NCBI GenBank assembly: GCA_027051165.1 | Contig: JALTZZ010000039.1 | Coordinates: 35,519-68,445, forward strand | Reading direction: 5' to 3' | DNA from: an archaeon | GTDB taxonomy: Archaea; Hydrothermarchaeota; Hydrothermarchaeia; JALTZZ01 | Length of the DNA stretch: 32,927 nt | Part shown: piece by piece, positions 1,672 to 32,519 of the stretch | Position numbering within the stretch: the first letter of the stretch is position 1 | How the letters are laid out: every line of letters starts with the position of its first letter | Notes under the pieces: generated by a model | Seen by the model: the letters and a program-made list of their open reading frames with translations, nothing else | The model's database searches: none | Told to the model about the DNA's origin: nothing | Program-made: the position numbers and the translations under genes

Positions 1672-1679
1672 TTTATAAA
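1672..1679 (+). promoter_or_regulatory. TATA box for the 1808/2070 surface gene unit
   Basis: TTTATAAA lies 136 bases before the ATG at 1808. An archaeal start about 25 bases downstream would fall near 1700, giving a leader of about 105 bases that contains the long hairpin at 1721-1786. A short inverted repeat, CATGC-N4-GCATG (1649-1662), lies just upstream and could be an operator. Not tested. Confidence 0.55.
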
Positions 1680-1720: not shown

Positions 1721-1786
1721 AAGAGGGGCAAAACGGTAGAGAGTTTGCCATAGAGCTGGCAGGTTCTTTACTGTTTTTCCCCTCTT
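1721..1786 (+). promoter_or_regulatory. Long leader hairpin (29-bp stem) before a Shine-Dalgarno
   Basis: The left arm is 1721-1749, the loop 1750-1757 and the right arm 1758-1786. As plus-strand RNA the 29 positions give 23 Watson-Crick pairs, 5 G-U wobbles and 1 mismatch (C9 against U21). On the other strand the five wobbles would be C-A clashes, so the fold favours RNA made from the plus strand. It is followed after 6 bases by GGAGGTGA (1793-1800) and the ATG at 1808. The same layout with unrelated sequence recurs at 12187-12260. The T-run after the right arm also allows a terminator or attenuator role. Confidence 0.75.
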
Positions 1787-1807
1787 TTTCCTGGAGGTGA
1801 AAAATAA

Positions 1808-2014
1808 ATGGTAAAAAGTAATATTATGCGGGCAAAGTTTGTGTATGTGCTGGTTTTTGTTCCGGTAGCGATTAGCAGTGTATGTGCAGAGGTTGTTGAC
1901 AGCGGTGGCGATGTTGACTGGCATACCTCAATAGCCTTTGACTCAAATAGAAATCCGCACATAAGCTACTACGATGATTCGAACAGTTATCTGAAGCACG
2001 CTTACACTCACTAA
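1808..2014 (+). CDS. Short secreted protein, probably a truncated repeat protein
   Basis: This 68-residue ORF has a strong ribosome binding site (GGAGGTGA, 7-base spacer) and a clear signal peptide (KFVYVLVFVPVAISSVCAEV, cleavage probably after the Ala near residue 27). The mature part is one copy of a motif seen in large secreted repeat proteins: DWHTSIAFDSNRNPHISYYD. In those proteins the motif occurs many times; here the frame ends at TAA after a single copy. I see a gene cut short, or a deletion that joined a 5' end to the next gene. The big ORF starting at 2070 lies only 55 bases downstream and has its own signal peptide, so this ORF might also act as a leader peptide in a shared transcript. 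Function is unknown. Confidence 0.6.
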   Translation: MVKSNIMRAKFVYVLVFVPVAISSVCAEVVDSGGDVDWHTSIAFDSNRNPHISYYDDSNSYLKHAYTH

Positions 2015-2069: not shown

Positions 2070-5000
2070 TTGTGGGCATCAATATTGAGTAGTATTTCGT
2101 TCGTTTTCGTCCTTCTCGCTCTCCTCAACATCGCAGGAGCCCTGCCTCTGAGCTCATGTGGTGTAATAGAATCTCCCGGCTACTACACCTTAGTTAGCGA
2201 TATAACAAACACCACAACATCAATTTGCTTCTGGATAAGGGCGAGCAACGTCACCATAGATGGCAACGCACATGTTCTTCTCGGCTCGCCCTCAGGTATC
2301 GGGATGCTTATCGGCTCAAATCAGGTAAAAGCCATAAATATAACCATAGAGAACATTTCTCTTGAGGGCTGGTCTACCGGAATTTCCGTGAAGCAAGGTG
2401 AAAATGTGAGAATATATAACGCAAAGATTGAGAACGGCACAGATGGCATTTCCTTAGGAGACCCGCTAAGGAGCAGCAGCTCCATTACAATAGACAACTG
2501 CACCCTGAAAAACAACATAGATTATGGTATAACCATAGGCTACAATATTGAGAATATAACAATTAAAGACTCCGTAATAATATATAGCTACCGTGGTATA
2601 TCCTATGGGGGTAGCAGCTACTATCCCAACATCACCGTTTACAACAACTTCTTCAACACAACGCTGGATGCGGTTGAATCCCTTGTGAACTTCTATGGAA
2701 TATTTAACACAACAAAACGGGCTGGAATTAACATAATCGGCGGTAGCTACATAGGTGGTAATTACTGGGGGAGAACAGATGGAAACGGCTTCAGCGACAC
2801 CTGCATAGACACCGATGATGACGGAATATGCGATTCTCCTTCTTACTACCAGATAAACAGCATGAGCTACGACCATCTTCCATTAGCCGGCGCTGGTGTA
2901 GCACCTCCGCCTATTGAGGAATATCAGATTTCAGGCAAAATCTACTATTCTGGAAACAGAAGTGGCATTATCTACATAGAGGTGCTCTACTCCTGTGACC
3001 CCTTTGCAGCACCGCTTTTCTTTACAAACATCTCATCTCCCGGAGATTACACCATAAACGTAACAAGTGGGAGCTACTATGTGAGAGCTTTCATGGATGC
3101 AAATGGAAATTTGAGCTACGATGCAGGCGAGCCTTACGGCATGGCGATAAACAAAAGCACTTGTGCAGATGCGGATTTGATAAACATCTTTAATGCAGGA
3201 GTTTCCGGTGTGGACATAACCATCTACGAGGCTGAGAGCACACCTCCATTAGTTTACATAATATTGCCTCAAAACAAAAGCTACAACACCACCAGCATTC
3301 CCATTGAGGTTTCTGCCATGGACGATACGGGCATAGATACCGTAATTGCCGAGCTTGATGGGGTAAACATAACCCTGAGCTACTCAGCTGGGCTTTACAG
3401 GGCTACCGCCACAGGGCTTGGAGAGGGAATGCACCACCTCAAAGTATATGCAAACGACACCTTTGGAAACGTGAATTCAAGCGAGGAAGTCTACTTCAGC
3501 GTTGACACCACTCTGCCAAGCTTAACCTTTGTTGCTCCTACGCCAGCGAATGGCACGCTGATGAACGCAAGAAATGCAACCTGGATATACATAAATGTAA
3601 CTGCCGATGAGCCTCTGAGCGGAGCTTGGCTGGAATACTGGAACGAAAGGATTCATGCCAACATAAGCCTCAACGGCTCTCTGAGAAACTGGCACGGCAA
3701 TTTTTCCCCTGCAGATGGTGCCTACTACTACAGAGCTTGGGGCAACGACAGTGCTGGAAATAAAAACGCTACAGGGATCAGATTTATATGGATTGACACA
3801 ACGCTACCTAACATAACCATTTATTCTCCACGGAACACAACCTACACTACGAGTGATGTTGGACTCAACCTCTCAGCCAGCGAGCCAGTCTCAGCATGGT
3901 GGTACTCCTTGGACAGAGGGGCAAATGTAAGCTTTACTCCAAACACGACTCTTCAAAACCTTGGAGATGGCTTGCACCTACTTGAAGTTTATGCAAGAGA
4001 CCCTGCTGGAAACACGGGTAACGCTAAGGTTGTTTTCACAGTAGCTCTTCCCGATATAACACCTCCTCTCCTGAGCTTTGTTTCTCCCACCCCCGAAAAC
4101 GGCTCTATTGTAAATACGAGCTACATTTATGTGAACGTAACCTCAAGCGAACCTCTCTCTCAGGCTGTGCTTGAGTGGAACGGCGCCAACTATACGATGT
4201 ACGGTTCTGGTGTAAACTGGCATCGCAACTTCACAATATACTATCCTGGATACTACCACGCTACCTTCAGGGTGCACGGCAGAGATGTGAGTGGAAACTG
4301 GGGCTCCACCGAGAAGAGGTTAATAATTGTGAGAATCTCCAGAATAGATGGATGCACAGTAATAGGATATCCCGGTGTTTACACCCTTACCAAAGATATA
4401 GTAAATTCTACAAGCAGCATGTGCATCTGGATTCTGAGCAGTGATGTTGTGATAGAAGGAGCATCGCACGCCATAGATGGTGTGCAAAACGTGAACTCCA
4501 AGGGAATATATGTTTACAACTCCTCCGGAAGGCTGAGAAATATAACGGTAAGAAATTTAACACTGACAGACTGGGATTACGGCATCTATATATATCGAGC
4601 AGAGGACAGCCTTATTGAGAAGATATCTGCTTCAGACAACACCGTGGGTGCACATCTAACTGGAGTGCAGAACATAACCCTTCAGGATAGCACCTTTACA
4701 CCCAAGTCAGGCGGAGACGGAGTCTATCTGAGCGGTTCAAATTGCACCATAAAAAACAACGCCTTCCTCAACACAGCCTACGCCCTGCGCCTCTATAGAG
4801 CATCAGAAAACTCAATACACAACAACGTTGTTGCTGCTGCTACGGGCGGCTACGGCATATACCTATCCTCCTCCCCATCTAACACATTGAGGAACAATCA
4901 GCTGGTAAATGGAAGCTACGGCATTTATTTGACCTCGTCTCTGAAGAATTTCATTCTGGAAAATGGAATTTCCTCTGCTCAGTATGGAATTTACCTTGAA

Positions 5001-8000
5001 AACTCTGGGAACTGCACACTGCACAACAACATCTTAGACTCAAGCTTCCGGGCACACATCTACCTCAACGCCTCTGGATATTCAGATATTGCGAGAAACA
5101 TCTTAGAGAACTGGACTGATGGTATAGAAACACACAATTCACCTCATCTCAGTGTAATAAACAACACCGCTAGAGAACTGCAGAAATTCCTCAGCATATA
5201 CAACTCCAGCGATTCCTATGTGATCAACAATACAGTCACCTACATTGAGGATGCGCTTGAGGTTTACAATTCTTCCAGACTGGATATAAGCCACAATATC
5301 TTTATAAGCAACTTTATTTTCTCCACAGGAATCCTTATGGAGAATTCTAATGACAGCACAATACACACCAATAGAATAGAGGAGTTTGAAATTGCAGTGG
5401 AACTCTTCAAGTCTTATGGAAATCTGATATTCAACAACCTATTCAACATCTCTGCTGTGGCAGATAACGGAAACAACCAGTGGAACACAACAAAGAGGAC
5501 AGGGGTTAACATAGTAGGTGGTCCATACATAGGCGGGAACTACTGGGCACTGCCGGACGGCACTGGATACAGCGACGCATGCACAGATAGCGATGCAGAT
5601 GGAATCTGCGACCTCCCATACACCACTGGAAATGTGATTGACTACCTGCCCCTCGCAAGATACGACACTCAGCCGCCGCAAATAGAAATAATAGCACCTT
5701 CACAGATTGAGAAGGGCAGCAACTTCGTGCTAAACATAACAATAACAGACAGAAATCCCTCTGAGTACAACGTAACAGGGAATGGCAGTTTGATAGCCAG
5801 TGGAGGCTATATCTCCGGCACACCGATAATTCTAAATCAGCTCTATGGGTTAGACTATTTTGATACTGGAGACCTGAGCTATGAAGTTTGTGCCAACGAC
5901 AGCTACAACAACTCCAATTGCACCTCAGTTGTTGTTAGAGTTGTGGATACCACACCGCCAAGCATAACACTCTATTCTCCACAGAATATCACCTATTTCA
6001 CAGATATCATTGATCTTAAAGTCTCAGCCAGCGAGCCAGTCTCAGCATGGTGGTACTCCTTAGACGGAGGGGCAAATGTAAGCTTTACACCGAATATAAC
6101 AATAAATGTTGCACCCTCCCGAAGCCACACTCTCACAATCTATGCCAGGGATTTAAGTGGAAATGTGGGGAAGGTGAAGGTGGTATTTACCGTCGCAAAC
6201 CTCATTAGAGGGTGCATGCAGATTTCAGCACCTGGCACATATTTTGTAGTTTCGGATATACTGAACTCTTCTGCAGAAAAGTGCGTAGTAATAAGCTCTG
6301 GAGACGTGATTTTGGAGGGTGAAGGGCATGTAATAGATGGAAGAGGAGGAGACTACGGAATTTACATCTCTCCCTCACAGGGACGGCTTGAGAATGTCAC
6401 AATCAGGAATCTAACACTCTCTGAGTGGGAGTATGGGGCTTATGTCAGTGAAGTAGACAACAGCACCTTTTCAAACCTCAGCATAGAGAATGGCATCCAC
6501 GGGATGGAAGTGTGGTATGGAGACAACAACACCTTTGCAGGAATTACTTTCCTGAACAACTACGATGGTATAGGTATGTATGCAGGAGATTCAAACGTCC
6601 TCGCACACATATATGTTGAATGTTCGCCAATGCACAATGGCCCAGGTGTTTGGCTGGATCACAGCAACTACAATTTCCTGTGGAATATAAGTGTGACCTC
6701 TTGCAACGATGGAATTATCCTGGGATATTCATCTCAAAATACCCTGAGGAGCAACTCAATGATGAGCAACACCCACAACTTTGGAGTTCTTGGCGATAGA
6801 GCGGAGCATTTCCGTAACAACATAACCACAACAAATCTCGTTGAGGGAAAGCCTATCTATTATCTCCTTGACCTCTCGGGAGCCCAAGTAGTTGCAAACG
6901 CGGGCTACGTAGGGCTTGTGAACTGCTCGGATATTAGGGTAATGGACACAAGGCTCACCAAAAACTATCAGGGGGTCCTGCTTGTGGACTCCACAAACAT
7001 AACAGTTTCAAATGCGACTCTATCTCAGAACCGGTATGGGATTTATATCCGCGGGGGCTCCAACTCCACAATTGTCAAATCCACGATAGAGCACAACAGC
7101 TATGCGGGTATATACACAGACAGCTCTCCTTCTAATTACCTTATCTACAACAACCTTCTCAACAACAGTCTCAATGTGTTCAATGGAGGCAGAAACAACC
7201 ACTGGAACACCACAAAGCAGAAGGGCAGAAGCATAGTTAACGGCCCATTTATAGGAGGAAACTACTGGGGCAAGCCAGATGGCAGGGGCTACAGCGACAC
7301 ATGCTCAGATAATAATGGAGATGGAATATGCGACTCCCCCTATACCCTTGGCACTTATGTAGTAGACTACTTACCTTTAACCTTTGAAGTTAAGCCACCC
7401 GAAATAAATATAATATCTCCGCAGAGCAGAGAATACACCTCTCCACCCTTGATAAATATCTCCACCATGGATTTAAGTGGCATCTCTTTAGCTACTGTTG
7501 AGGTTGACAATAGGGTTAATATCACCCTTAGTCTTATCAACGGCTATTATCTTGGCAACCTCTCTCCCCTATGGCCCGGGAAGCATCTCCTCAGGATATA
7601 CGTCTGGGACAGCTTAGGAAATGGGAACTCCACCCATGTTGCATTTAGCTTGAAGTCGGCTTCTCACGCAAAGGCTCACAAAAACCTAAGCTCCGGAAAG
7701 AGAGAGGTAGTAAACGAAACCCTGGGCAACACCTCTGTTGAGCTTGAGATTGCCCCTCTGGTCAATGATAGCGTTTTTATAAGCGTAAATGAGAGCACAA
7801 ATGTGAGCCAGCTTGCAAATACAACGAATGAGGAGTTTTCAGCCTTTGCAATAGCGAACAACGCTCAAGCTATAGGCAGATTTGTCAGAATTGAGGTTAA
7901 CGGGAGCAGAATAAATAACACAGCCAATCTGAGCTATGTAATTGTAAAGCTCCACTACACAACAGCAGACCTTGACAAAAATGGTGATGGCGACTATAGT

Positions 8001-9005
8001 GATCCCGGTGATATAGACCCGAGAACTCTGCACTTTTACAGATACTGCCCAGATACGGGCACCTGGGATGAGGTTCCCCATGGTCGCGGCTGGGTGTGCG
8101 GAAATGTGGAAGTGTTCAATAGCAGCGTTAACCTATCGGGTAGATACGTGTGGGCAAACTTAAGCCACCTTAGCGTCTTTGGAATAGCTGGTAAAGTAGT
8201 AACACAAGAAGTTATCGTAAGTGTTGGTGGCGAAGGAGGAACACCCGAGATTGTAGCAAAGACATTCAACGAAATAACTAAAAAACTGCTGGAGGAAATA
8301 TTCAAGGCAAAGAACTTGATCTACAGAACCTTCGTAGAAGTGCCTAAGCAAGCCTTGGCAAGCTTGCTCAGCATAGCAGATAAAACAAAGCTCTATCCGT
8401 TCTTTGAGGAGCTCAAAGATATAGTAAAGAAGGAGCCGGAGAAATTAGAGGGGGACATATACGAGATAACAGCAGAGCAAGTGCTCAGCAAATACACATG
8501 GGTGCCGAGGGTAATAATAGCACGCGGCGACTTGGAGGTTGACAGCTACGCAGCATTAGCACTTGCAAAAGCAAAGGGTGCACCAATACTGTTAACTAAG
8601 CCTGATGAGCTGCCAGAAGCAACGCTTAAGGCAATAGAGAAGCTCAAGCCAAAGGAGATAATAATTGTCGGCGGACCAAAGGCGGTTAGCGAAGAAGTAG
8701 AAGCTAAGCTTATGGAATACGCCAAAGTAACAAGATTGTGGGGAGCTACAAGAATAGAGACGAGCGTTGAAATTGCAAAGCAGTTTGCAAAGCCGAAGTA
8801 TATTGTGATCGCTAACTGGAGCTCAAGCGAGAAAGCGGCTTATATAGCTTATCTATATAAAGCTCCCGTGCTCTATGTAAAGGGTAGAGAGGTGCCAAAC
8901 GTCGTCGAGGAATACATTAAAGAGAAACTTGAAGAATATCCAAAACCAAAGATAGTTTTTGTTGACATAAGCAGAGAAGCTAAGAGCAAAATAGAGAATT
9001 TGTAA
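2070..9005 (+). CDS. Giant surface protein: three NosD-like beta-helix blocks, Ig-like spacers, CW_2-type C-terminus
   Basis: The start is TTG at 2070 with GAGGGGG at 2056-2062, and it opens a signal peptide (FVFVLLALLNIAGA) cut near residue 24. Three blocks each begin with a C-x-VI-x-x-PG-x-Y-like motif, run through beta-helix repeats (NITI..., GIY...), and end with GGNYW(G/A) and an acidic D-x-DGDGICD-like loop that looks calcium binding; the GGNYW motifs fall near residues 229, 1155 and 1729. Ig-like or Big domains (DTTLPSLTFVAPTP and similar) fill about 395-760, 1190-1380 and 1775-1860. A PGF-pre-PGF-like segment (about 1860-2060, LHFYRYCPDTGTWDEVPHGR) is followed by a helical linker and two putative cell-wall-binding-2 repeats (about 2147-2311, IIARGDLEVDSYAALALAKA, IIIVGGPKAVSEEVEAKL). 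There is no C-terminal membrane helix. N-x-S/T sequons are abundant. The gene is visibly richer in G+C than its neighbours, which suggests a separate origin. Adhesion or surface-layer association is inferred. Confidence 0.88.
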   Translation: MWASILSSISFVFVLLALLNIAGALPLSSCGVIESPGYYTLVSDITNTTTSICFWIRASNVTIDGNAHVLLGSPSGIGMLIGSNQVKAINITIENISLEGWSTGISVKQGENVRIYNAKIENGTDGISLGDPLRSSSSITIDNCTLKNNIDYGITIGYNIENITIKDSVIIYSYRGISYGGSSYYPNITVYNNFFNTTLDAVESLVNFYGIFNTTKRAGINIIGGSYIGGNYWGRTDGNGFSDTCIDTDDDGICDSPSYYQINSMSYDHLPLAGAGVAPPPIEEYQISGKIYYSGNRSGIIYIEVLYSCDPFAAPLFFTNISSPGDYTINVTSGSYYVRAFMDANGNLSYDAGEPYGMAINKSTCADADLINIFNAGVSGVDITIYEAESTPPLVYIILPQNKSYNTTSIPIEVSAMDDTGIDTVIAELDGVNITLSYSAGLYRATATGLGEGMHHLKVYANDTFGNVNSSEEVYFSVDTTLPSLTFVAPTPANGTLMNARNATWIYINVTADEPLSGAWLEYWNERIHANISLNGSLRNWHGNFSPADGAYYYRAWGNDSAGNKNATGIRFIWIDTTLPNITIYSPRNTTYTTSDVGLNLSASEPVSAWWYSLDRGANVSFTPNTTLQNLGDGLHLLEVYARDPAGNTGNAKVVFTVALPDITPPLLSFVSPTPENGSIVNTSYIYVNVTSSEPLSQAVLEWNGANYTMYGSGVNWHRNFTIYYPGYYHATFRVHGRDVSGNWGSTEKRLIIVRISRIDGCTVIGYPGVYTLTKDIVNSTSSMCIWILSSDVVIEGASHAIDGVQNVNSKGIYVYNSSGRLRNITVRNLTLTDWDYGIYIYRAEDSLIEKISASDNTVGAHLTGVQNITLQDSTFTPKSGGDGVYLSGSNCTIKNNAFLNTAYALRLYRASENSIHNNVVAAATGGYGIYLSSSPSNTLRNNQLVNGSYGIYLTSSLKNFILENGISSAQYGIYLENSGNCTLHNNILDSSFRAHIYLNASGYSDIARNILENWTDGIETHNSPHLSVINNTARELQKFLSIYNSSDSYVINNTVTYIEDALEVYNSSRLDISHNIFISNFIFSTGILMENSNDSTIHTNRIEEFEIAVELFKSYGNLIFNNLFNISAVADNGNNQWNTTKRTGVNIVGGPYIGGNYWALPDGTGYSDACTDSDADGICDLPYTTGNVIDYLPLARYDTQPPQIEIIAPSQIEKGSNFVLNITITDRNPSEYNVTGNGSLIASGGYISGTPIILNQLYGLDYFDTGDLSYEVCANDSYNNSNCTSVVVRVVDTTPPSITLYSPQNITYFTDIIDLKVSASEPVSAWWYSLDGGANVSFTPNITINVAPSRSHTLTIYARDLSGNVGKVKVVFTVANLIRGCMQISAPGTYFVVSDILNSSAEKCVVISSGDVILEGEGHVIDGRGGDYGIYISPSQGRLENVTIRNLTLSEWEYGAYVSEVDNSTFSNLSIENGIHGMEVWYGDNNTFAGITFLNNYDGIGMYAGDSNVLAHIYVECSPMHNGPGVWLDHSNYNFLWNISVTSCNDGIILGYSSQNTLRSNSMMSNTHNFGVLGDRAEHFRNNITTTNLVEGKPIYYLLDLSGAQVVANAGYVGLVNCSDIRVMDTRLTKNYQGVLLVDSTNITVSNATLSQNRYGIYIRGGSNSTIVKSTIEHNSYAGIYTDSSPSNYLIYNNLLNNSLNVFNGGRNNHWNTTKQKGRSIVNGPFIGGNYWGKPDGRGYSDTCSDNNGDGICDSPYTLGTYVVDYLPLTFEVKPPEINIISPQSREYTSPPLINISTMDLSGISLATVEVDNRVNITLSLINGYYLGNLSPLWPGKHLLRIYVWDSLGNGNSTHVAFSLKSASHAKAHKNLSSGKREVVNETLGNTSVELEIAPLVNDSVFISVNESTNVSQLANTTNEEFSAFAIANNAQAIGRFVRIEVNGSRINNTANLSYVIVKLHYTTADLDKNGDGDYSDPGDIDPRTLHFYRYCPDTGTWDEVPHGRGWVCGNVEVFNSSVNLSGRYVWANLSHLSVFGIAGKVVTQEVIVSVGGEGGTPEIVAKTFNEITKKLLEEIFKAKNLIYRTFVEVPKQALASLLSIADKTKLYPFFEELKDIVKKEPEKLEGDIYEITAEQVLSKYTWVPRVIIARGDLEVDSYAALALAKAKGAPILLTKPDELPEATLKAIEKLKPKEIIIVGGPKAVSEEVEAKLMEYAKVTRLWGATRIETSVEIAKQFAKPKYIVIANWSSSEKAAYIAYLYKAPVLYVKGREVPNVVEEYIKEKLEEYPKPKIVFVDISREAKSKIENL
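3871..3937 (+). repeat. Internal near-identical repeat, copy 1
   Basis: About 67 bases starting TCTCAGCCAGCGAGCC are nearly identical to 6022-6088. Both copies encode SASEPVSAWWYSLD-x-GANVSF, part of an Ig-like spacer domain. The surrounding domains are much more diverged, so this patch suggests recent duplication or gene conversion. Confidence 0.85.
6022..6088 (+). repeat. Internal near-identical repeat, copy 2
   Basis: Second copy of the patch at 3871-3937, in the same frame. It differs at only a few bases, including TTGGACAGA against TTAGACGGA. Confidence 0.85.
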
Positions 9006-9034: not shown

Positions 9035-9064
9035 TTACTACTTTGTTATAAGTATTATGTTTTT

Positions 9065-9098
9065 AACCCCCTTGTGAGATGAGTAATGCAAGGAGGTT
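9065..9098 (+). repeat. 34-base palindromic element, copy A
   Basis: AACCCCCTTG (9065-9074), a 14-base middle, then CAAGGAGGTT (9089-9098): arms pair with one mismatch. It lies 60 bases after the stop at 9005. Copy D (31183-31216) matches at roughly 25 of 34 positions including part of the loop (ATGAGT). A related but weaker element is at 25186-25218 and a hairpin with the same CCCTTGC/GCAAGGG core closes the insertion sequence at 10208-10235. It may be an IS end, a small non-autonomous element or a 3'-end signal. Confidence 0.6.
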
Positions 9099-9202
9099 AG
9101 TTTTTCTATAAAAACAAATTTTTCAAGAGAAACTCTTCATTCTTATAAAAGGACGTTTGCATTAGAAACGAGGCAAAATTTTCCAGGCGAAACGCAGAAA
9201 AA

Positions 9203-9236
9203 TTTATATAGGAGAAGGGGTATTAACCCCTTCTCC
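9203..9236 (+). promoter_or_regulatory. TATA box and 11-bp hairpin before the transposase
   Basis: TTTATATA at 9203-9210 is followed directly by GGAGAAGGGGT-ATTA-ACCCCTTCTCC (9211-9236), a perfect 11-bp inverted repeat with a 4-base loop, ending one base before the GTG at 9238. A transcript would start at about the end of the repeat, so it is more likely a DNA site (operator or transposase binding) than an RNA hairpin. The half TATTAACCCCTT resembles the reverse complement of the right end (TTATAACCCCTT at 10230-10241). Confidence 0.55.
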
Positions 9237-9237
9237 G

Positions 9238-10224
9238 GTGATAGGCATGAAACAGCCACTAATTCCATATTTAGCTCATCCTACGTGGATAATCTTCAAT
9301 AACATCATAAATCTTTTTGACAGAAAAACGGTAAAGAAGGAGATGACTAAAGCAGGGATAAAACCTGTCAAGAGAGCGGCATTGATGATTAGAATAACGC
9401 TAACAGCGATATTCTTTGAGAGAAGCGTAACAGAGGTAGTAGAAGAGCTTAAAAGGAATGAAGAGCTTAGAAGAGTCGTTAGAGTTGCAGAAGTCCCTTC
9501 TACAGATGAGATATACAGCTTCCTCAGCAGATTCAGCGAGGATCAGTTCATAAAGCTTTTATCAGTTATAAACAGGTTTATTAAGAGGAGCTCGGTAAAG
9601 CTCCTCGATACTACCGATGTAAATCTGTTCAGAGAGCAAAAAATATAAATGGTGCTATGCTTTAGGCAAGGGGTTCTATAAAGGCTACAAGCTCGCTTTA
9701 GTCGTGGAATATCCTTCTTTAAAGCCCATAGGGGTTTATCTATACGAAAGATCGCCAAACGACTCAAAACTCTTCCTTAAAATCGTTAAAGACCTTAAGA
9801 AAAGAAGAGTTTTGAGAAAAGGTGATAAAATAATAGCCGATAAAGGATTCTGTGCTCAGAAAAACTACTGGAAAAGCATTATGTGGTATAAAATTCTCCC
9901 TTTCATATTTCCTAAGAGAAATCTGAACGTTAAAAGGATTAAGGGAAGATTTACTTACCCCTTTAAAGCCCTTAAGGATAAAGAGACTTTATGATAAACT
10001 CTTTTCCTCTTTCAAGAGCTTCCTGAACTCTTGGGAGAATTTTAAAGCCATTAGGAGCGTTGTCGAAGATGTGTTTAAGGTTCTCAAAAATTCTCTCTTT
10101 AAAGAACTTACACAGATATTCTAAGCGCTCTGTTATAAAGTTCGCAGCCTTGAGTGTCCTTTTATTAGGCATATCTATGGGATTTAACAGCAAGGAGAAA
10201 CTCCAAGCCCTTGCTGAGTCTTGA
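9238..10224 (+). pseudogene. IS4-family DDE transposase, broken in four frames
   Basis: Joining four frames gives a transposase of about 325 residues. Piece 1 (9238-9640) carries the N-terminal region and LLDTTDVNLF with the first catalytic Asp. Piece 2 (about 9645-9990) has WCYALGKGFYKGYKLALVVE, the DSKLF segment and IIADKGFC with the second Asp. Piece 3 (about 9990-10110) has AIRSVVEDVFKVLK with the expected Glu of the R-x3-E-x6-K signature. Piece 4 (about 10110-10224) has SKRSVIKFAALSVLLLGISM and ends at the original stop TGA 10222-10224. The first break is one extra base in an A-run near 9641. Start is GTG 9238 or ATG 9247. All three catalytic residues survive, so decay is recent and due to frameshifts rather than substitutions. 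No intact copy is in this window to supply it in trans. Confidence 0.82.
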
Positions 10225-10235
10225 CTCTGCAAGGG
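10208..10235. repeat. Palindrome at the IS right end, copy B of the CCCTTG family
   Basis: CCCTTGC-T-GAGTC-TT-GACTC-T-GCAAGGG is an almost perfect 28-base palindrome with one T-T clash. It overlaps the last codons of the transposase and is followed by GTTATAACATTTTTG. It shares the CCCTTG/CAAGGG core with the palindromes at 9065 and 31183. Confidence 0.65.
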
Positions 10236-10253
10236 GTTATAACATTTTTGAAA

Positions 10254-12123: not shown

Positions 12124-12132
12124 TTTTATATA
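12124..12132 (+). promoter_or_regulatory. TATA box of the 4288-residue surface protein gene
   Basis: TTTATATAA at 12124-12132 lies about 145 bases before the TTG start at 12277. A start near 12155 would give a leader of about 120 bases containing the hairpin at 12187-12260. The rest of the stretch 11961-12276 is AT-rich and shows no gene. Confidence 0.6.
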
Positions 12133-12186: not shown

Positions 12187-12260
12187 ATCCTCGCAGATGA
12201 AGGTTATAAACAGCAGATCATTTATGTGATCTGTTGCTTATAACCTTCTTTTGCGGGGAT
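12187..12260 (+). promoter_or_regulatory. Long leader hairpin (34-bp stem) before a Shine-Dalgarno
   Basis: The left arm is 12187-12220, the loop TTTATG is 12221-12226 and the right arm is 12227-12260. As plus-strand RNA the arms give 29 Watson-Crick pairs, 3 G-U wobbles and 2 mismatches over 34 positions. Four bases later comes GGAGGT (12265-12270), then the TTG start at 12277. Geometry and placement match the hairpin at 1721-1786 although the sequences are unrelated. In archaea no known riboswitch of this form comes to mind. The hairpin could hold the leader open, bind a protein or be cut by an RNase. Confidence 0.8.
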
Positions 12261-12276
12261 TACTGGAGGTATTGAG

Positions 12277-15200
12277 TTGAGAAACTCCTCCAATAAAAAT
12301 TTTCGACATATATTTTTAAATTTCTTGGACTTGGGAAAGAAATTTTTCATGATTCTTCTGCTTCTATTATCCACCCCGGTTTATGCTTCAAATCTTCCTC
12401 ACGATATTTTTAAAGGAGAGAAGATCCCGGTAAAGGAAGGTAAGCATTCTCCTGCCTATATTGTTGGTCTAAATTATACAGAAGAGGATTTAAAAAAGGA
12501 AATCGAGTTAAAATACACATACAACATGAATACATTTTTGGAAGATTTAAATAGGGATCCCGTAAAAATTTACTATTATATAAGAAACAACTTCGATTAT
12601 CAGCCATATTATGGAAGTTTGAAAGGTGCGGAAGGGACTTTTCTTGAAAGATCTGGAAACGATTTAGATTTAGCAAACTTGCTTGTAGAACTCTACAGAG
12701 AGCTTGGAATTCCAACAAAATATGTTCATGGCAATATTATAGTTTCAAAAGAATCCCTTTCAAGGATTTTTGGTGTGGATATCAACAATGTTGAGAGGGT
12801 TTTGAGATCTGCAATGATTCCATACAACAAAAGCGGGGCAAACTATGTAGTAGATCACTTCTGGGTAGAAGCTTACATAAATGAAACGTGGATACCTCTC
12901 GATCCTTCCTTTAAGTTCTATGAGTATGTAGAACCGTCTATAACTATGGAAGAACTTGGACTCAACACAACAAATCTCTCATATAGAGTTACAGGGGTGA
13001 TAAAGACTAATAATAATACTATAACTACCTCACCCATAACATACGATAAATTCCCAGAGTTATCTTTTGATTTTCTATATGGATTGGGCGGTAACATAAC
13101 AGATATCGTAGAAAAACAAATTGGAGACCTATCTAAACAAAGTATATATGGTATTATAAAAAAATATGATAAATTCAGGAAAAACTTCTTGGGAAGCTGG
13201 AGAATTGTTCCAGAAGACAAGTCTGCCTTTCCAGAGAGGCTACCTTATGAGGTGCACAGTGTCATAGAGGAGTTCTCTTCAATTCCAGAAAAGTATAGGT
13301 ATAAAATAAAGATAAATGTTGACAGTGCAGGACTGGAAGTAGTGTTTAATACAAGTAAAGTTGCGGGGAAAAGAATAGTTCTCACATATGTTCCTTATAA
13401 CGAAAGCGATGCTGATATAATAAACTCTTATGAAAGTATAGAGGACGTTCCAATAGATAAAGTATATATATCGCCAGTATTAATGGTGGATGGTTATCCC
13501 AAAGCCTTTGGAACGAAATCAAGACTCGGTGAAAAAGCAAATCTTACGATAAGTATTTTTATTGGAGAAAAATTCTTAGGAAATGACACAACAAAGATAA
13601 CATTGGGGGGAGATTATGCAGTAGGAATGAACATGCAAAGAGTAAGTGAGCAGCTTCTTAGCTATAGGATAAACAGGTTAAAAATAACGAATTTTCTGTT
13701 TGAGAATGGATTTAGGAATATTACGAGGGAAGAGATTGTTGGAGAAATACTAAACATAGTTTCTTTGATATACTGGTATAAACTTGACAGCTATGCGGAG
13801 AGAATTGCTGGTTATTCCAAGATAAGGTTCTTTAGGGCACCTTCAATACTTGTTGTTGGAAGTGCATACAACGTTAGCAAAAATAGGATGAAATTGATTG
13901 GAATGTTCATAGATATACACAGAGATTACTATGTGCCTATTGCAAACGATTCAGAGGCTGAAAAAAGATTTATGATAATGACAGGATTAAAAGGTGCTGA
14001 ACTCGAAGCTGAAGTCATAGAGAAGCTTACAGGAGTTCCAGCCATCTCTACTGGAAAGATATTCAGCATTGCAAGAGATTTGAATATACCTATATACATC
14101 GTGAACTCCACAAATGTAAATACTACTCTTCCCCTCCTCAACATAACCATTGAAGATAAAAGTGCGATAAAAAAAGCGGTTTCCAAGGGATTGACTGTCG
14201 TAGTTCCAGCAAGAAATGTTGTTATTAATCGCTGGAAGGGCACGGGTTTCTACATGATAAACGAGTCAAGCGGTGCAATGGCTTACATGATAAGCGGTGG
14301 AATAAGGGGAGGACTTTCAATTTCGGAGTACATAAAAAAACAATTAACCTTAAAGAAAAGACTTGAAAACTTGTATGATAATCTTGCTAAAACAGAAGCT
14401 GGCAAAAGGTTTTTGAAAAAGCTTCCCGGAGTTAATATTCTCGTTAGTCAAGCCGAGAATATTATAACAGCGGTTTTTGAGCTTTATTATGCAGAGCCGT
14501 GTGAAAGAGCAATGATAGCATCTCAAAAGATTGTAGATGTTTTGGTAGATTTAATTGGTGATGTAATATCGGATACCGTTGGCATGGAGATAACCTTAGC
14601 TGAAATTACGGTCTCAAGAACAGTAATAAACGATTTCAGCATAGATTTCATGGATACAATAAAAGATGCCATTAAATCGTATGCAAAGGAAAAGCTTGGT
14701 ATAGACAATTTGCTTGCTAATTGTCCGCAACCATCTATTCTTATTCGTGAGCGGAAAGAACCAATAAAAATTCCTCTTGGGGAAAAAGTAACATTTAGAG
14801 CATTTTTAATTTGTAACTATTGGGCTATGAGCGGAGAAAAGGCATATAATCCTTTAATATGGGTTATACCAAAAGAGGAGAATAGACCTTACGATCTCAT
14901 AACGAGAATAGAGCCGCACTCGGGAGCAACGACTTATGGATGCGACAGGGTTATGGTAACTATAGATACGAGTTTTATTGAAAAATGGGCAAAAAGAGGA
15001 CATGGAGAGAAAGCAATGGACATTCTCCTTAGCGAAATCGGAAAGGACAATACTGGTCTCTACATCATATCAGTAATATCAAACGATCCATCCAAGCCAG
15101 TAGAATATGCTGCGGTTCGGTTTGTAATTACTCAAAACAAAAGCATTGTTAAGGTAGACGAAAGTGCATGGCTATCTTACAAAAAGGGTGGGAGTGATAA

Positions 15201-18200
15201 GGACTATGTAAAAGTTTTAAATCTTGGTCTATCTCCGATAAACTTGTCTGTGAAGCCAGAAAAGATATCAAAATTGGGGATTGAGATAAAATATCCAAAA
15301 GTAATAGATCGTGGGAGTAGCGGATTTATTGAAATAACTTCAAAAGGAGCTCCTGTAGGAGATTGGAAAGCAAAAATATCTGTTATTGCTAAAATTGGAA
15401 ACGAAACAATAGTAAAAGATGTATCGATTAGAGTTCATGTATATAAAGAGGATAAAAACAAAAATGATCAACCAGAACCCAGACCTGGAAACGATCATCC
15501 AGATGATAACAGCGATGTTCCAAGAACGATACTATCAAAAGAAAACAACATTTATACAATCCTCAGAGAAGGTATAATCAATAATTTAAGCGTTGCCTAT
15601 GATATATATAAGTTAATCAATTATTTCAATAACATAACACCAGTTTATACTAAGAATGAATCTTTCAATTTAGTGGAGAACGTTTCAATGATATATAATG
15701 CTCTTTCTGCAAAACTAAATGTTAAAGAGTTCGAAGAGAATGCTGCAAGCGTTGCTGTGCTTAAGAGAGGGTTCTATGTGGGAGCATCTAACATCCTTTC
15801 TTCAGCAAGAATACCCCATACAATTGTTGAGGATTTTGATCCCGTTAAGCTTGCAAAGACAAAGAAGGTGTTAATAATACCATCTGGTGGTCTTTTTGGA
15901 GCAAAAACTAAAATTTTTAAGGAAAAGTTAAGAAAATATTTGGAAGAGGGAGGAAATATTATTGTTTTCTCCCAGCAGTTTGGTAGAGATTATGAAATAC
16001 TTCCTCTCTCTCCAAGTGGGGTTGGCTGGGCTGAGGATCAGATGTGCTTCATAAACTCTCTCTATGTAACTCAGGATAATCCAATATTCTCCTCTATAAC
16101 AAGAAACATTATAAGTGAGGAAGTAGATGGATACTTTGACAGGTATCCAGCAACATCTGTTTCCCTTTTAAGCAGGACGAAGAATCACTTCCCTGCAATG
16201 CTCATGTATCCATACGGTAAAGGATACGTTATTATCTCAACTCTTTATTCTGACTGGAAGAGTGAACAGAGAGAACCTTCTGAATTTATAACCTCGGTAG
16301 TTAGGGACATGGTTGCATATATAACATTAAACAAAGATGTTTATGAGATAGGATTAAAAAAAGCTTGGCGGGGTCTATACCTTCCTGAAAACAATTATAC
16401 AATTCCAGTAAAAATAGATAATCCCGCCAAAGAAAGTGCTGATAAAATAAAATTCGTGCTTATATCTCCAAGTGGTAAAATATCTAAGATATTTGCTGTA
16501 AATGAAACCATAAAAAATAAAACATCGAAAATTGTTAATATAACAATTCCAAAGGATTACTTCTCTCCAGAGCTTGGAATATGGATCCTTGACTACATGC
16601 TCATGAAAGGTGGGGATATCATATATACAAAATACAATGCAAAGGGAATTTCTTTAAACCTATACAAGGACAATGATTATTTATTTAACTATGCTGGAAA
16701 GGAGAAGTATCTTGTATGGGCAACATCGAGTAAAGAAGAAGCAAAGCTTGGAGATACCATAAATATAACATTCCATATAATAAACAAGGATAATAAATAT
16801 TTGAACGGAAGTCTCGGAATCGGAGATCACGTTGTTAGATACGGCTGGACCGTGCATGAAGCTAAAAACGTAAGCATTCCTCCAAATTCCTACAAAAAAT
16901 TTGTTTTTGAATTAAAAATGCCGCCAAAATTATACGATCATACTCTATATAATATAAAAGGAGCTAATGGCATAACTTTCTACTTAGGATTTTATAAAGA
17001 TAGATCTGCATATAAAGGAGAAGGAGACTTCATTGATGCATTTCTGCGTGCTGAAAAGGGGGTAAAGATAAGACTACCTAATATATATGCTGAAGCAGAG
17101 TTCGCAGATAAAAAAAGAGAATATAAACCCGGAGAAATATTAAAGCTAAACATCAACCTCAAAAACAACGATGCTACAGACTGGGAGCTTAAGGTAAAAG
17201 CAGGTGTGTATAAGTATAAGCGTGGTTCTATAGTTGCAAATTCAACTGTGGTCAATATTTCAGCCGGCGAAACGAAGAACATAAAAATTGATTTAAAACT
17301 TCCGAACACCTTAGAACCGGGATCGTATAGTGTGGAGATAGATGTTTTTGAAGAAAGGAGTAATGCAAAAATAGCTTCTGATTATTTAACCTTTTCAAGA
17401 GAAGAGCCAAAGGTTGTAGTTAAACCTTCTTTATTGTTCAACCCTCCATATCTAAACCTTGATATAAACATAGAAAATAACATAACCCTTTCAAACCCTA
17501 TTCTTTATATTATTCATGAAATTTCAGAATATGCTGGAAATTCAAGTATAAAAACATACAAATACAATCTTACATTTAAAAACTACAGAAACACAACAAG
17601 ATTGCCAATAAGCTTAGATGAGGAAAAGTTTGCAAAGCACGTTTTCAGATACAGTATTGTGGAGGGAGCGGAGAAATATAAACCGCTTTCTGCAGGTTCC
17701 CTTACATTTGACAGAAAAATAGTGGTATACTACCCAAAGGTTTCTTTCAGCGGCATTGGAGGGGATATGCTAAATCTATCTGTAACCTTAGAAAATCCAA
17801 ACCAAATTTCCGAAACTTTTGACGTAAACATCTCAATTCCCGCAATTCCTTACACTAACGTATCCACGATAAAGATTGATAAAAAGACAAAAATAACTCT
17901 GAACTATAATATAAATGTTCCAAAGCTATCTAATGGTAGCTATTCTATTGTAGTAAAGGTTCAGAAAAATAACACATATATAGAGAAAAAAACAAGATTT
18001 TATATCAAAGATTCATATCTTTATGGTTACATACCCTATTCTCTATACTCCGCGAGAGATAATGCCACCGCATACGTTATTAATAAAGGCGGTGTTGATA
18101 CCACGGCAAATGCAACGTTAGGTATATGCAGAGGTAACGCTTTTCTGGCTAAAGAGAATTATATCCTAAAAATACCAGCCAATAAAAGAATTGCCATGAA

Positions 18201-21200
18201 TATAACAATTCCACAAAATATTACTCCGGGATTTTTCCTCTGTTTGAATGTAACGGATCTTAGAAATATGAAGAAGTTTGAAAAGAAAAGTAGGCTTTAC
18301 TTAAGAGGGATTAAGTTAGAGGCTGAATTAACGGAACCTATATATGCTGGAGAAGAAGCGATTTTATCTATTAAGAATGTAGGTGGAATAAGCGATAGAG
18401 CAAATATAACGGTTAAGTTGTTTAAACCATTCTTCTACAATCCAATTGTTAAAAAAGAATACAAGGATGTTCCACTTAACCTCGGTAGAGCTATAAATCT
18501 CTCTCTGCCAATACCAGATAACTTGGGTGGGGATTACAAACTGGTGATAGATGCTGATGGAGAATATTCAACAGATTTCTTAACTCTGTGGATTAAAGTT
18601 TTAGGTTTCAATTTATCCGCGATCGTTGAAAAGAACGCATACAATGCTGGAGATTCAATTGAAGTGCTTCTTAAGAACAGCGGTGGCGGGCATAAAAATA
18701 TAACAGTTTCAGCTCATCTGAAAAATGGCAATTTATTATACGAATTAGGAAGCAAAATTGTTGAAATAGGAAAACTTGAAGAAAAGGTTGTTAGCTTCAA
18801 AATCCCAGAATACACACCTACAGGCACCTATGTTCTTTATGTTAACTATGAGGGTAAAACATATTCAAAAGTTGTAAATGTAAGTGGTCTTGAGCTTGAA
18901 ATTAGATTACAAAGAGATAGTTTTGATGTAGATGAAGGTATAAACCTAATTATAAACAACACAGGAGCTTTAAATGCAAAATTGCTGATAAACTATGCCT
19001 TATCATACTACTATAGAGGAAGCACAACCCTTGAGATTGGTGCGGGAGAGTCAAAGAACATAACATTATCCGTGCCGAAATACATTTCAAGCGGGTATTA
19101 CATTCTAAATACTGAAATTAAGGATTTAAACACAAACAGAACATTTTATGATACATTTAAAGTAAAAATAAGAGGATTTGAATTGAATATTGGAATATAT
19201 AAGACAAATATAATTACTGGTGATAATTTAACTGTCACTATTGAAAATATTGGTGGTTTAAATCTTGATCTTGATATTACTTTAAAATTAAATGATAATG
19301 TTTTAAATAAGAGTGCTAAACTATCCAAGGGAGAAAAGAGAGATTTAGTATTTCAACTGCCTCTTCTGCCAAAAGGGGAATATGATGTGGAAGTAGTAGC
19401 TCAAGATAAAGTATCAAATAGAACTTTGAAGAAGATATTTAAAATAACAGTAAGCGGATTTAGAATAGATGCAAAACTAAACAAAAGCAACTTTACATCT
19501 TTAGAAAGAATAAATGTAACATTTATAAACGAAAATCCAAACGTAGATGCAGATTGTAGTTACGGTGTCTACCTTATAGATTCTTTTGATAAAAGCTTCT
19601 ACCTTGGCAGTGGGGATATAAGAATACCCAAGAATGGAAAGAATTATACAGAGATTGATTTAAAAGAAGGACTTGCAAGCGGAAGATACAAATTAATAAT
19701 AAATTTGGTAGAGAGGAACACCGGTGAAAGATTTACTATTACAAAAGATGTGCAGATAAAAGGTATAGAAAGCAAAATCAATGTTCAAATGCCGAAGAAT
19801 GCTTTTTACGATGATCATTTAAATGTAGATGTGGATGTTGATCAGAGGGGAATTGTAAAGGTGCAGGCTGGAGAGGAAATAAAGCACTACCCCTATGGTA
19901 TAGGAAATATAGAAAAAGAAGGAGAAGACTTATGGATATTTTTCAGAGAAATGCTCGGTTTATACAAAGATGGAAAGTTGACAGCATACTACTATCCTAC
20001 ACACGAAGTTGGATGGTTCGAAAGCGACTATATACCAGCATTAGTTACAAATAGTAAAGTATTTTTAGCAGATTTCCATGGAAATCTTCTGGTATTTAAT
20101 AAAATCTCCAAATCTTGGAATATTTATAACAACTCAAATATTTTGGGATATCCAGAAATGGGATGGCATGCTGGTATAACATCCATAGAATACTACAACG
20201 GAAGTATATGGATAGGATTTTATGGAAAGGGGCTTGTAAAGCTTAATTTTGATGAAAAGAATGCAGAGGTCTATAATACATCCAACAGCTTACTACCTTC
20301 TGACTGGGTGTTTGATATTGAAAACGATGGAAAAAGTCTCTGGATTGCTACAGATAGAGGCATTGTAAGGATAGATTCTACTTGGAAAGTTTGGAGCCCA
20401 TCTCAGCTGAATGTAACTGGGATAAAGGATATAGAGATCGTAAATGGAGATGTATGGATAGCTGGTGATAAAGTTTGCAGGATGTTTGGAGAATGCTATT
20501 CCAGCCAGCTTCTGAGCAGCAGCATAGATAGAATTGTGCATGACAATGTATCTTTATGGATCATATATGCCCCATGGAGCGGTGTAGAAGGGGTAAGCAG
20601 GTTTTACTTTGGAAACAAAACATGGGTGCATGTATATAAGAACAGTAGCATTCTCGGAGACCTCATAGATATAGAGGATGGGATCTATGCTACAACGAAG
20701 TATGGTATTATAGAAGATGGAGTTAATAGAGTATTCGGACCGAGAAGTAGTATAAATGATGTATTTTATGGGGACAAAGTATATGCAAGCTCTATGTATG
20801 AAGGAATAAGCATATACGATCCGAAAAACGAAAATTGGACATTCCTCTCCTCCGGTGTGTTTAATTTTGCTGACAATATATTCTACAATGGAAAACTGAT
20901 ATTTTCAAGTAAGGATATATATGGAAGTGATGTGCTTGTAGTGTATGACTTCCAGAACGTAACCATATACAATTCATCAAACTCCCCTCTAACGTCCTCA
21001 ACCTACATACGAAGCATAACTGGAAATGAAACAACGATATATTTGGGAACGTCTAAAGGCTTGATCATATACAATATGAATAGCGGTGTTTTTACTTTGC
21101 TTAATACAGAAAATTCAAACTTAACGAACGATAATATTTATTCCATCTACTTGTATGGAAATGAGCTATGGATTGCCGACTCTTCAGGAGTTGGAGTGCT

Positions 21201-24200
21201 GAACCTTAACAGTGGGGAATATCATAGATATATAACGGACTCTTCTAAGGAAGTTTTGGCGGATGAAAACAACATATATATAATAACGAGCTCCAACAAT
21301 TTGTTGATATATGATAGAACTACTGGTAAAAAGGAAATATACAACTCAACAAAAGGTCTCTTAGAGGATTGCATCTACGATATTGACATTTTAAATAAAA
21401 AAATATTTATAACATATTGCTCCGGCAATAAGATTTCCGTTTTTGATAATAAAAACTGGAGACACCTAAACATAAGAGCACTAAGCGTTTCTGCAGGAGA
21501 AAGAAGTGTTGCATTTGGAAATAGTGGGCTTTCTATTTATGAAAGCTACAATTTTGAATATAATGTAAATCCGGGGGTAAATAAAATAATAATTGAACCA
21601 CCGCACAAAGAAGGTAAAAATATCTTCAGATTCTATATAATTTCAGAGAAAGGACAGCTACTTAACGAAACGGCGAAAGATATTTATCTCTATAAGAGGA
21701 ATATAGAAGCAAAAATTATCAGTAATAAGAACGTATATAAGAAGGGAGAAGAAGCTGATATAAAAATTTTAATAGTAAATCATGCACCAATAGCAGATAA
21801 AATTAAATTTAATTTAAGCATCGAGGGAAATATTTACACAAAGGAGGTTGAAATACCTGCTACGACTTCTTATATATATGAAGTCAAGCTTAAAGTAGAG
21901 AAAAATTTGACAGCAAAGTTATCCTTGTTAGGTAGAGAAATCCTGAAAGACATAAAAGTTGTAGAGCCCAAAGCTATTATAGATGTTGAAATACCGGAGG
22001 TTGTTTCTCTCGATCCGTTTAACGTTACAGTTTGGATAACAAACATAGGAGAGGTAGAAATAAATGTCTCTGTTGATGTAGATGGAGAGAAATTTAATAA
22101 AATAATTTTACCGGGGAATTCGGATTATATAACCAAATCCATGAAAATTTCTCAAGATAGGAACGTAACAATAAAATTGAGTGGAGATATTGAAAAAGTT
22201 TTAACAAAAACAATAATATTGGGAGAAAAAGTAGATGTAATATTCAAGCCGAAATACGTAATTTCCCAAAATGAAAATGAGATAACGGTTGATGTAGTTA
22301 ATACTGGTGTTCTTGATTCTGCCTTTAATTTATCCATATACGGAAATTATACTACTAACTTGAGCATTTATATTTCTGCAAAAGAGAATAAAACTGTTTA
22401 TATACCGGTTAATCTTTCAGAAGGAAAACATGTGCTCTTTTATAAATCAAAGTTTGGAAATGGTAGCTTCATTGTTGAAGTTGTAAGAGAAAAATTAGAT
22501 GTAAAAGCTAAGGTAGTCTCACTCGGATATGGAAAAATGAGAGCATATATTAATGTGGAAAATATTGCCCCAATAGAATTCTTTGGAGTGTTGGAGGTAA
22601 TGTCGCCAGTTTCATACAAAAAAACCAGCATCAATATTAAACCTAATGACAACAAGACGTTTATATATGAATTTGAGGGAATATTTGAAGAGAGATTACA
22701 GAACCTAACTGTAAGAATACTCAAAAATGGAAAATTGCTAATCGAGAAAGATTTCGGATTTGTAGCGAATCCCGTCTATATTGTGGCTATAAATGCTAAA
22801 GATACTTATAAAATTGGAGAGTTAATGAAAATTATGGTTGAGATATCAAATGTAGGAGATTCTATTGGAAAAGATGCATTGCTTCTTGATATACCCGGAA
22901 TATACAGAAACTATACGGAAATAACTATAAATCCTAAAGAAAATCTGAGTTTTAATTTCTCTGTAAAACTCCCAGAAGATCTTCCAACAAAAGACATGAG
23001 GATCATAGCAAGTATTGAAAATATATCTGTAGAAAAGAAATTTAAATTGACTGGTATAAATTTAACTGCACGAGCTTATTTGGACAAAGAAGTGTATTCT
23101 AAAAACGACAATCTAACAATATACTTGAACATTAGCAACAACGAAAATGTTAGTGTAGAAGGCAATATAACTATATCCTGTGGGGATATTGAAAAAGTTG
23201 GAAGTTTTATACTTAATGAGTATCAAAGTAAAATATACTCTTTCAGTCTTCCTGTTTGCGAGAGAATTTTCTACAATCTAATGCTAAATTCTGGGAGACT
23301 GATCGAGATTTCCTCTCTACCCGTCAATATTCTGCAAAACAAAACTGTTGCTGTTTATACAGATAAGAATAAATATAAAATAGGGGAGAATATGACAATA
23401 TTTGTAAACGTTGGGTCTCCAACGCTTGTTTCACTTTCGATTTTTGGGAATCAGACGATATTGGATGTAACAGATAATACATCCGTTTATATGGTTGTGC
23501 CGGATGTTCCCAGCGGAACTTATGAGATATATTACGGAATTCCCGGAGAAGGAAGTTTTGTATACTATTTTGACGTGTATTCGCCTAGCGCTAAAGTGCT
23601 CTCTTTTGTTCCGAGTAAAGATGTCTTTTACCCGGGAGAAAAGATATCATTTTATGCAAGGATATATTCTGATGAAGATATTAAAGGAAAAATAAGGATG
23701 TGGCTCTATAATAATGAAAATTCCTTAGTTGATTATGATGAAAAACTTATAAATTTGAGCAAGGGTGAGAATGTTGTAAATATTTCCACGAATTTCTCTC
23801 TCCCATCAATGGGAGATTACTTTATCCTCTATGGTATATATAGGGGTTTAAATTCCACATTAATAGCTTCAGGCATTCAAAACTTAGAAACTGCCGGTCC
23901 TTCAATTGTATCCATAATAACAGATCGTCAGAAGTATTATGAAAATGAAAACGTGACTTTTAACATTACACTTTCTGGAAATGGAAAAGCAAATATAACA
24001 ATCTACGGAAAGGAAAAAGTTTTAGAAAAGACTATAATTTTAAACAATACCAATACGCTTACATATATTATACCCGCCAGCAAAATTGAAATGTCACTAA
24101 AAGCTGTTCTTGTTTGGGGTAATAGCTCTGCTAATAGAAGTATTTTCTTAGATATCATTAATCTGCCTCCAATAGTAGATTTTAAATATGAAAAAGGTTA

Positions 24201-32489: not shown

Positions 32490-32519
32490 CTCACAGCTGT
32501 GAGGAAATGAATTTATAAG
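32490..32519 (+). promoter_or_regulatory. Operator-like palindrome and TATA box of the winged-helix gene
   Basis: CTCACAGCTGTGAG (32490-32503) is a perfect 14-base palindrome followed after 8 bases by TTTATAAG (32512-32519). This is where a regulator acting on archaeal promoters would bind. The downstream gene is itself a winged-helix protein, so autoregulation is plausible. Confidence 0.55.

Follow-up and report, generated by a model that had tools for sequence, protein, structure and literature searches.

The window, the whole stretch of 32,927 nt of a Hydrothermarchaeota genome analysed here, carries on its plus strand two leader hairpins, each lying between a TATA-like box and a Shine-Dalgarno sequence (SD) ahead of genes for secreted proteins:

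1672–1679, plus strand: TATA box TTTATAAA, from the sequence and a motif scan, with CGAAAA (BRE-like) just before it
1721–1786, plus strand: leader hairpin 1, folded with RNAfold; orthologue at L018:15502-15567
1793–1798, plus strand: Shine-Dalgarno GGAGGT, 6 nt 3' of the hairpin 1 stem and kept in the orthologue
1808–2014, plus strand: 68-aa open reading frame with a signal peptide and one HISYYD repeat, the remnant of an orthologous 460-aa BNR-type secreted protein
2070–9005, plus strand: 2311-aa secreted giant with NosD/beta-helix repeats, Ig-like and C-terminal CWB2 parts; homologous to L018:17288-19978
12125–12132, plus strand: TATA-like TTTATATA, 62 nt 5' of hairpin 2
12187–12260, plus strand: leader hairpin 2, with 34-position arms (29 Watson-Crick pairs, 3 G-U pairs and 2 mismatches) and a 6-nt loop by arm count
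12265–12270, plus strand: Shine-Dalgarno GGAGGT, 4 nt 3' of hairpin 2
12277–25143, plus strand: 4288-aa secreted giant, transglutaminase-like and PKD, with a TTG start

Folding of the first leader confirmed the hairpin proposed in an earlier, sequence-only reading of this DNA, with a minimum free energy (MFE) of −40.2 kcal/mol on the plus strand (z −7.1) against −29.5 kcal/mol on the minus strand (z −6.0). In the RNAfold structure, 24 Watson-Crick and 5 G-U pairs are split by a single C·U mismatch (1729/1778) into blocks of 8 and 21. The earlier reading had the coordinates right, but it gave the loop 8 nt instead of 6 because the closing A-U pair (1750/1757) went uncounted. Its placement of the hairpin between the TATA box at 1672 and the SD, with the stem ending 6 bases before the GGAGGT at 1793–1798, was borne out, as was its count of five G-U pairs among six imperfect positions in plus-strand RNA, none of them A·C. 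The distance from the start of the TATA box (1672) to the stem is 49 nt, and from the position of this box the transcription start of operon 1 is predicted at about 1698–1705. Two further features lie upstream. Palindromic repeats resembling CCATGCAATGGCATG (1635–1665; CCATGCCATGCCATGGCA in the orthologue) adjoin the 5' side of the TATA box and are a possible operator, and directly 5' of the promoter, at 1440–1640, there is a gene remnant (KVGFTYLKKKVHTADDNLSMHMHRLCNAGYV...) that has no intact start and, judged by eye, looks like a winged-helix regulator.

Hairpin 2 is predicted to be more stable still, at −48.8 kcal/mol on the plus strand (z −10.1) versus −40.2 kcal/mol on the minus strand, and its wobble asymmetry is weak (3 G-U, 1 A·C and 1 U·U). 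Similarity searches detected no relationship between the two hairpins, and their size and position agree, in keeping with the original description of two leader hairpins of like geometry and unrelated sequence. Since the leaders are alike in geometry and show no detectable sequence similarity, sequence-specific recognition is unlikely; the stems agree in size and place but not in sequence, and this directs attention to the helix itself. The two also differ downstream, and this bears on whether hairpin 1, followed by UUUUU, acts as a transcription attenuator or terminator. A run of five U directly follows the hairpin 1 stem in both orthologues, as such a device would have it, but the run would be required after both elements and is absent 3' of hairpin 2. 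No evident alternative antiterminator faces the 29-bp stem, and archaeal termination by U-tracts with aCPSF1 (PMC8716108) also counts against an attenuator, which we regard as very unlikely.

The two hairpins stand apart from every other leader in the sampled part of the genome. A survey of 1.2 Mb, about 51% of the host genome, covered 314 SD-led leaders, and these two were the only outliers, with stem scores of 28.0 (hairpin 1) and 29.9 (hairpin 2) followed by a third best of 13.1, against a median best stem of 6.3 and a 99th percentile of 11.4; both end 4–6 nt before GGAGGT. The top hairpin in 200 Markov-shuffled windows scored 17.7. Each hairpin was single-copy in our searches, so we rejected a MITE or dispersed palindromic repeat, and a viral origin was likewise set aside after the exact patterns of both hairpins found no match in viral contigs. 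The window gave no Rfam match at the gathering score. A covariance model of hairpin 1 recovered only the two orthologues in the 23 genomes of the class; it reached hairpin 2 (30.9 bits) only once the filters were disabled, and the class-wide search is therefore blind to hairpins of unrelated sequence. Bacterial relatives of the HISYYD-repeat protein (L120–L138) have several unrelated hairpins, none with a matching leader pattern.

Other long inverted repeats in the sampled stretches were few, among them an AT-rich 20-bp repeat, a 21-bp IS-end-like palindrome, a 57-position quasi-palindrome and a simple repeat. The perfect palindrome with 21-bp arms, TTTATAACTCCCTTGCTGAGTCATGACTCAGCAAGGGAGTTATAAA (L191:10977-11022), resembles the end (~10212–10245) of a degraded IS at window 9063–10240 and, to judge by this likeness, may possibly represent joined IS ends. 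The simple repeat, (AGATTT)n, extends over more than 100 bases at L184:6074-6187 of the same genome. The 57-position inverted repeat (L151:5358-5475, contig C20 of the same genome), which has 8 G-U pairs and 5 mismatches on one strand, is centred on the palindrome CTCACAGCTGTGAG. This palindrome occurs in 97 copies in the genome (0 for the reversed-pattern control), one of them at window 32490–32503 and others on L151, L163 and further contigs; the copies are mostly intergenic, sometimes placed immediately 5' of a TATA-like box, and they cluster on particular small contigs, with 7 copies in 5.8 kb of C20 and 11 in 20 kb of C34. It has the look of an operator, whether for a large regulon or for a separate replicon or virus.

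An orthologous leader of hairpin 1 was found in one relative, Candidatus Hydrothermarchaeota S141_67 (roughly 0.44 Mb sampled), which belongs to another family of the same class. The two leaders are 86% identical over 114 bases, and the TATA box of the orthologue reads TTTATTAA, with a spacer 5 nt longer. The stems differ at five positions, all A-U to G-U exchanges or the reverse; all five are one-sided changes that keep the pair, with no two-sided and no pair-breaking change. Such an outcome has P = 0.0026 under the substitution types of the flanks and loop, and the signal is weaker (P = 0.03–0.08) with base types held fixed. Changes are far denser in the loop (4/6) than in the arms (5/60; P = 0.002), and the difference between the arms and the upstream flank (14/76) is not significant (P = 0.13). 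Stability on the plus strand is kept (−40.6 kcal/mol in the orthologue and −40.2 in the window), and the minus-strand energy drifts from −29.5 in the window to −27.3 in the orthologue. These comparisons support constraint on hairpin 1 as a plus-strand RNA, with the proviso that two-sided covariation is beyond what two sequences can reveal. The earlier suggestion of selection for RNA structure is thus supported at hairpin 1, where every pair survived and the loop diverged.

The same data bear on two further alternatives. Any RNA hairpin is also an inverted repeat in DNA, and here a promoter, inferred from sequence, lies close by, so that a cruciform or an operator for a dimeric DNA-binding protein could be envisaged; however, all 8 wobble positions across the two hairpin 1 orthologues are G-U on the plus strand and hence mismatches in DNA, and the minus strand is weaker by 11–13 kcal/mol in both, which makes an element acting at the DNA level highly improbable. 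The hairpins might instead be neutral relics, quasi-palindromes left by template switching during replication or by inverted duplication and still undecayed. Their sequences are unrelated, both have broken genes and decayed transposase fragments close by, and hairpin 2 has no orthologue among the genomes compared, all of which would suit such an origin; yet the hairpin 1 orthologues lost none of their pairs through five stem substitutions while loop and flanks diverged, and both hairpins stop 4–6 nt before an SD. We consider relics of this kind quite unlikely.

Reciprocal best proteins of the window genome and S141_67 have a median identity of 51%, yet the non-coding leader remains alignable at 78–86%; in addition, a few end codons of the aminotransferase (hisC-like) gene that lies upstream in S141_67 persist upstream in the window. 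The hairpin 1 leader thus probably moved together with its operon by horizontal transfer, a claim built on sequence comparison. Behind the orthologous leader, the S141_67 operon encodes the 460-aa secreted HISYYD/BNR-repeat protein, a 117-aa protein and a NosD-type giant. The window has suffered a deletion of ~1.4 kb (positions 2005 and 2013 of the window match 15772 and 17212 of L018), which left the 68-aa remnant directly before the giant; hairpin 1 therefore leads an operon whose first gene is of ordinary size and, here, broken. When TAG was translated as an amino acid, no broken gene of the window plausibly opened up.

This gene order does not fit the idea, put forward in the sequence-only reading, of a leader class devoted to secreted giants. 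The 4288-aa gene behind hairpin 2 is the longest open reading frame in the sampled half of the genome, but its homologues in G017, G013 (S141_67), G006 and G003 have no comparable leader stem, and no comparable hairpin precedes other giants encoded in the host genome, of 2483 aa (C170), 2276 aa (C35) and 1259 aa (C18), some starts in both sets having been picked automatically. With the first gene behind hairpin 1 not a giant either, we abandoned the class in that form.

The least complicated reading is mRNA protection combined with SD spacing. We lean towards it tentatively, at slightly under an even chance: both hairpins would be shape-only 5'-leader structures that shield long surface-protein mRNAs and space the SD. 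Transcription would begin roughly 20–30 nt upstream of the hairpin and presumably include all of it, and the folded leader would be an A-form helix, about 30 bp long, that ends 4–6 nt before the SD. This helix could stop RNase J from degrading, in the 5'→3' direction, surface-protein mRNAs that are long and slow to make, could hold flanking sequence off the ribosome-binding site, and might persist as a long double strand thanks to the apparent lack of RNase III in the lineage. An RNase J homologue is present in the host genome, and archaeal aCPSF2, of the RNase J family, is a 5'→3' exonuclease (PMC10663502). RNase III had no match in any of the 23 genomes that represent the class, while 8 of the 14 controls were positive; as it was not found in the class, a helix this long would escape cleavage by it. 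Several points weigh against shielding: the stability predicted for 75 °C drops to between about −14 and −17 kcal/mol, the genome has other giant genes that manage without a hairpin, and the predicted 5' tail of ~20–30 nt is longer than would be ideal for blocking the 5' end in the manner of ompA.

A further objection, that the SDs are partly paired in the predicted full leaders, keeps a regulatory switch as the main rival. Here the hairpin would set the 5' tail (TTTCAATTTCA) beside the SD (TGGAGGTGAAA), forming across its base a weak anti-SD helix that heat, a protein or an sRNA could open, or it would be where a dsRNA-binding protein that regulates surface proteins attaches. The MFE structure of leader 1 does pair the 5' tail, largely conserved in S141_67, with the SD region, leaving the SD unpaired with a probability of about 0.25–0.5, and in leader 2 it is TCCTCC, within the first codons, that pairs with the SD. 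Against this, the anti-SD partner is not the same in the two leaders (5' tail in one, coding sequence in the other), the anti-SD helix of leader 1 is short, AT-rich, contains G-U pairs and hangs on the predicted start site, and no protein-binding sequence is common to both leaders. Translational control of this kind seems to us unlikely, if worth keeping in view. Returning to protection and spacing, a broader proposal is doubtful but has a real chance of being right. It holds that a shape-only helix of ~30 bp, free in sequence, stands 4–6 nt 5' of the SD in surface-protein operons of archaea whose lineage lacks RNase III, has arisen independently at different genes and moves between families with its operon. 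There is almost no knowledge so far of post-transcriptional control in uncultured archaea; if the helix protects the mRNA, it would do so in a lineage without detectable RNase III, where long double-stranded RNA can persist, and would be a compact, sequence-free part for model archaea.

Among known systems, synthetic or natural insulator hairpins of 5' untranslated regions (UTRs) also place a stable hairpin a few nucleotides before the SD; the present leaders share this arrangement and differ in having no ribozyme, and any insulation by them is putative. The S-layer leader slpA of Lactobacillus acidophilus has a large stem-loop in the untranslated part of a surface-protein mRNA that may protect it (PMC6482533), although its host is an unrelated bacterium and the structure and function of our leaders are predicted only. 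Stabilisation of mRNA by 5' stem-loops has bacterial precedent (PMC7509114), and stabilisers of the ompA type (also the papA, aprE and vacA leaders) come close in layout: there the mRNA of a surface or secreted protein carries a stem-loop in its 5' UTR, ahead of a strong SD. Our leaders likewise have a stable stem-loop upstream of a strong SD, in a 5' UTR whose transcription we infer from the TATA box; they depart from the ompA type in a stem of ~30 bp, an archaeal host without detectable RNase III, a predicted single-stranded 5' tail of ~20–30 nt and a stabilising effect that is putative. If the helix does protect mRNA from 5' decay, archaea share the physical trick of bacterial surface-protein leaders.
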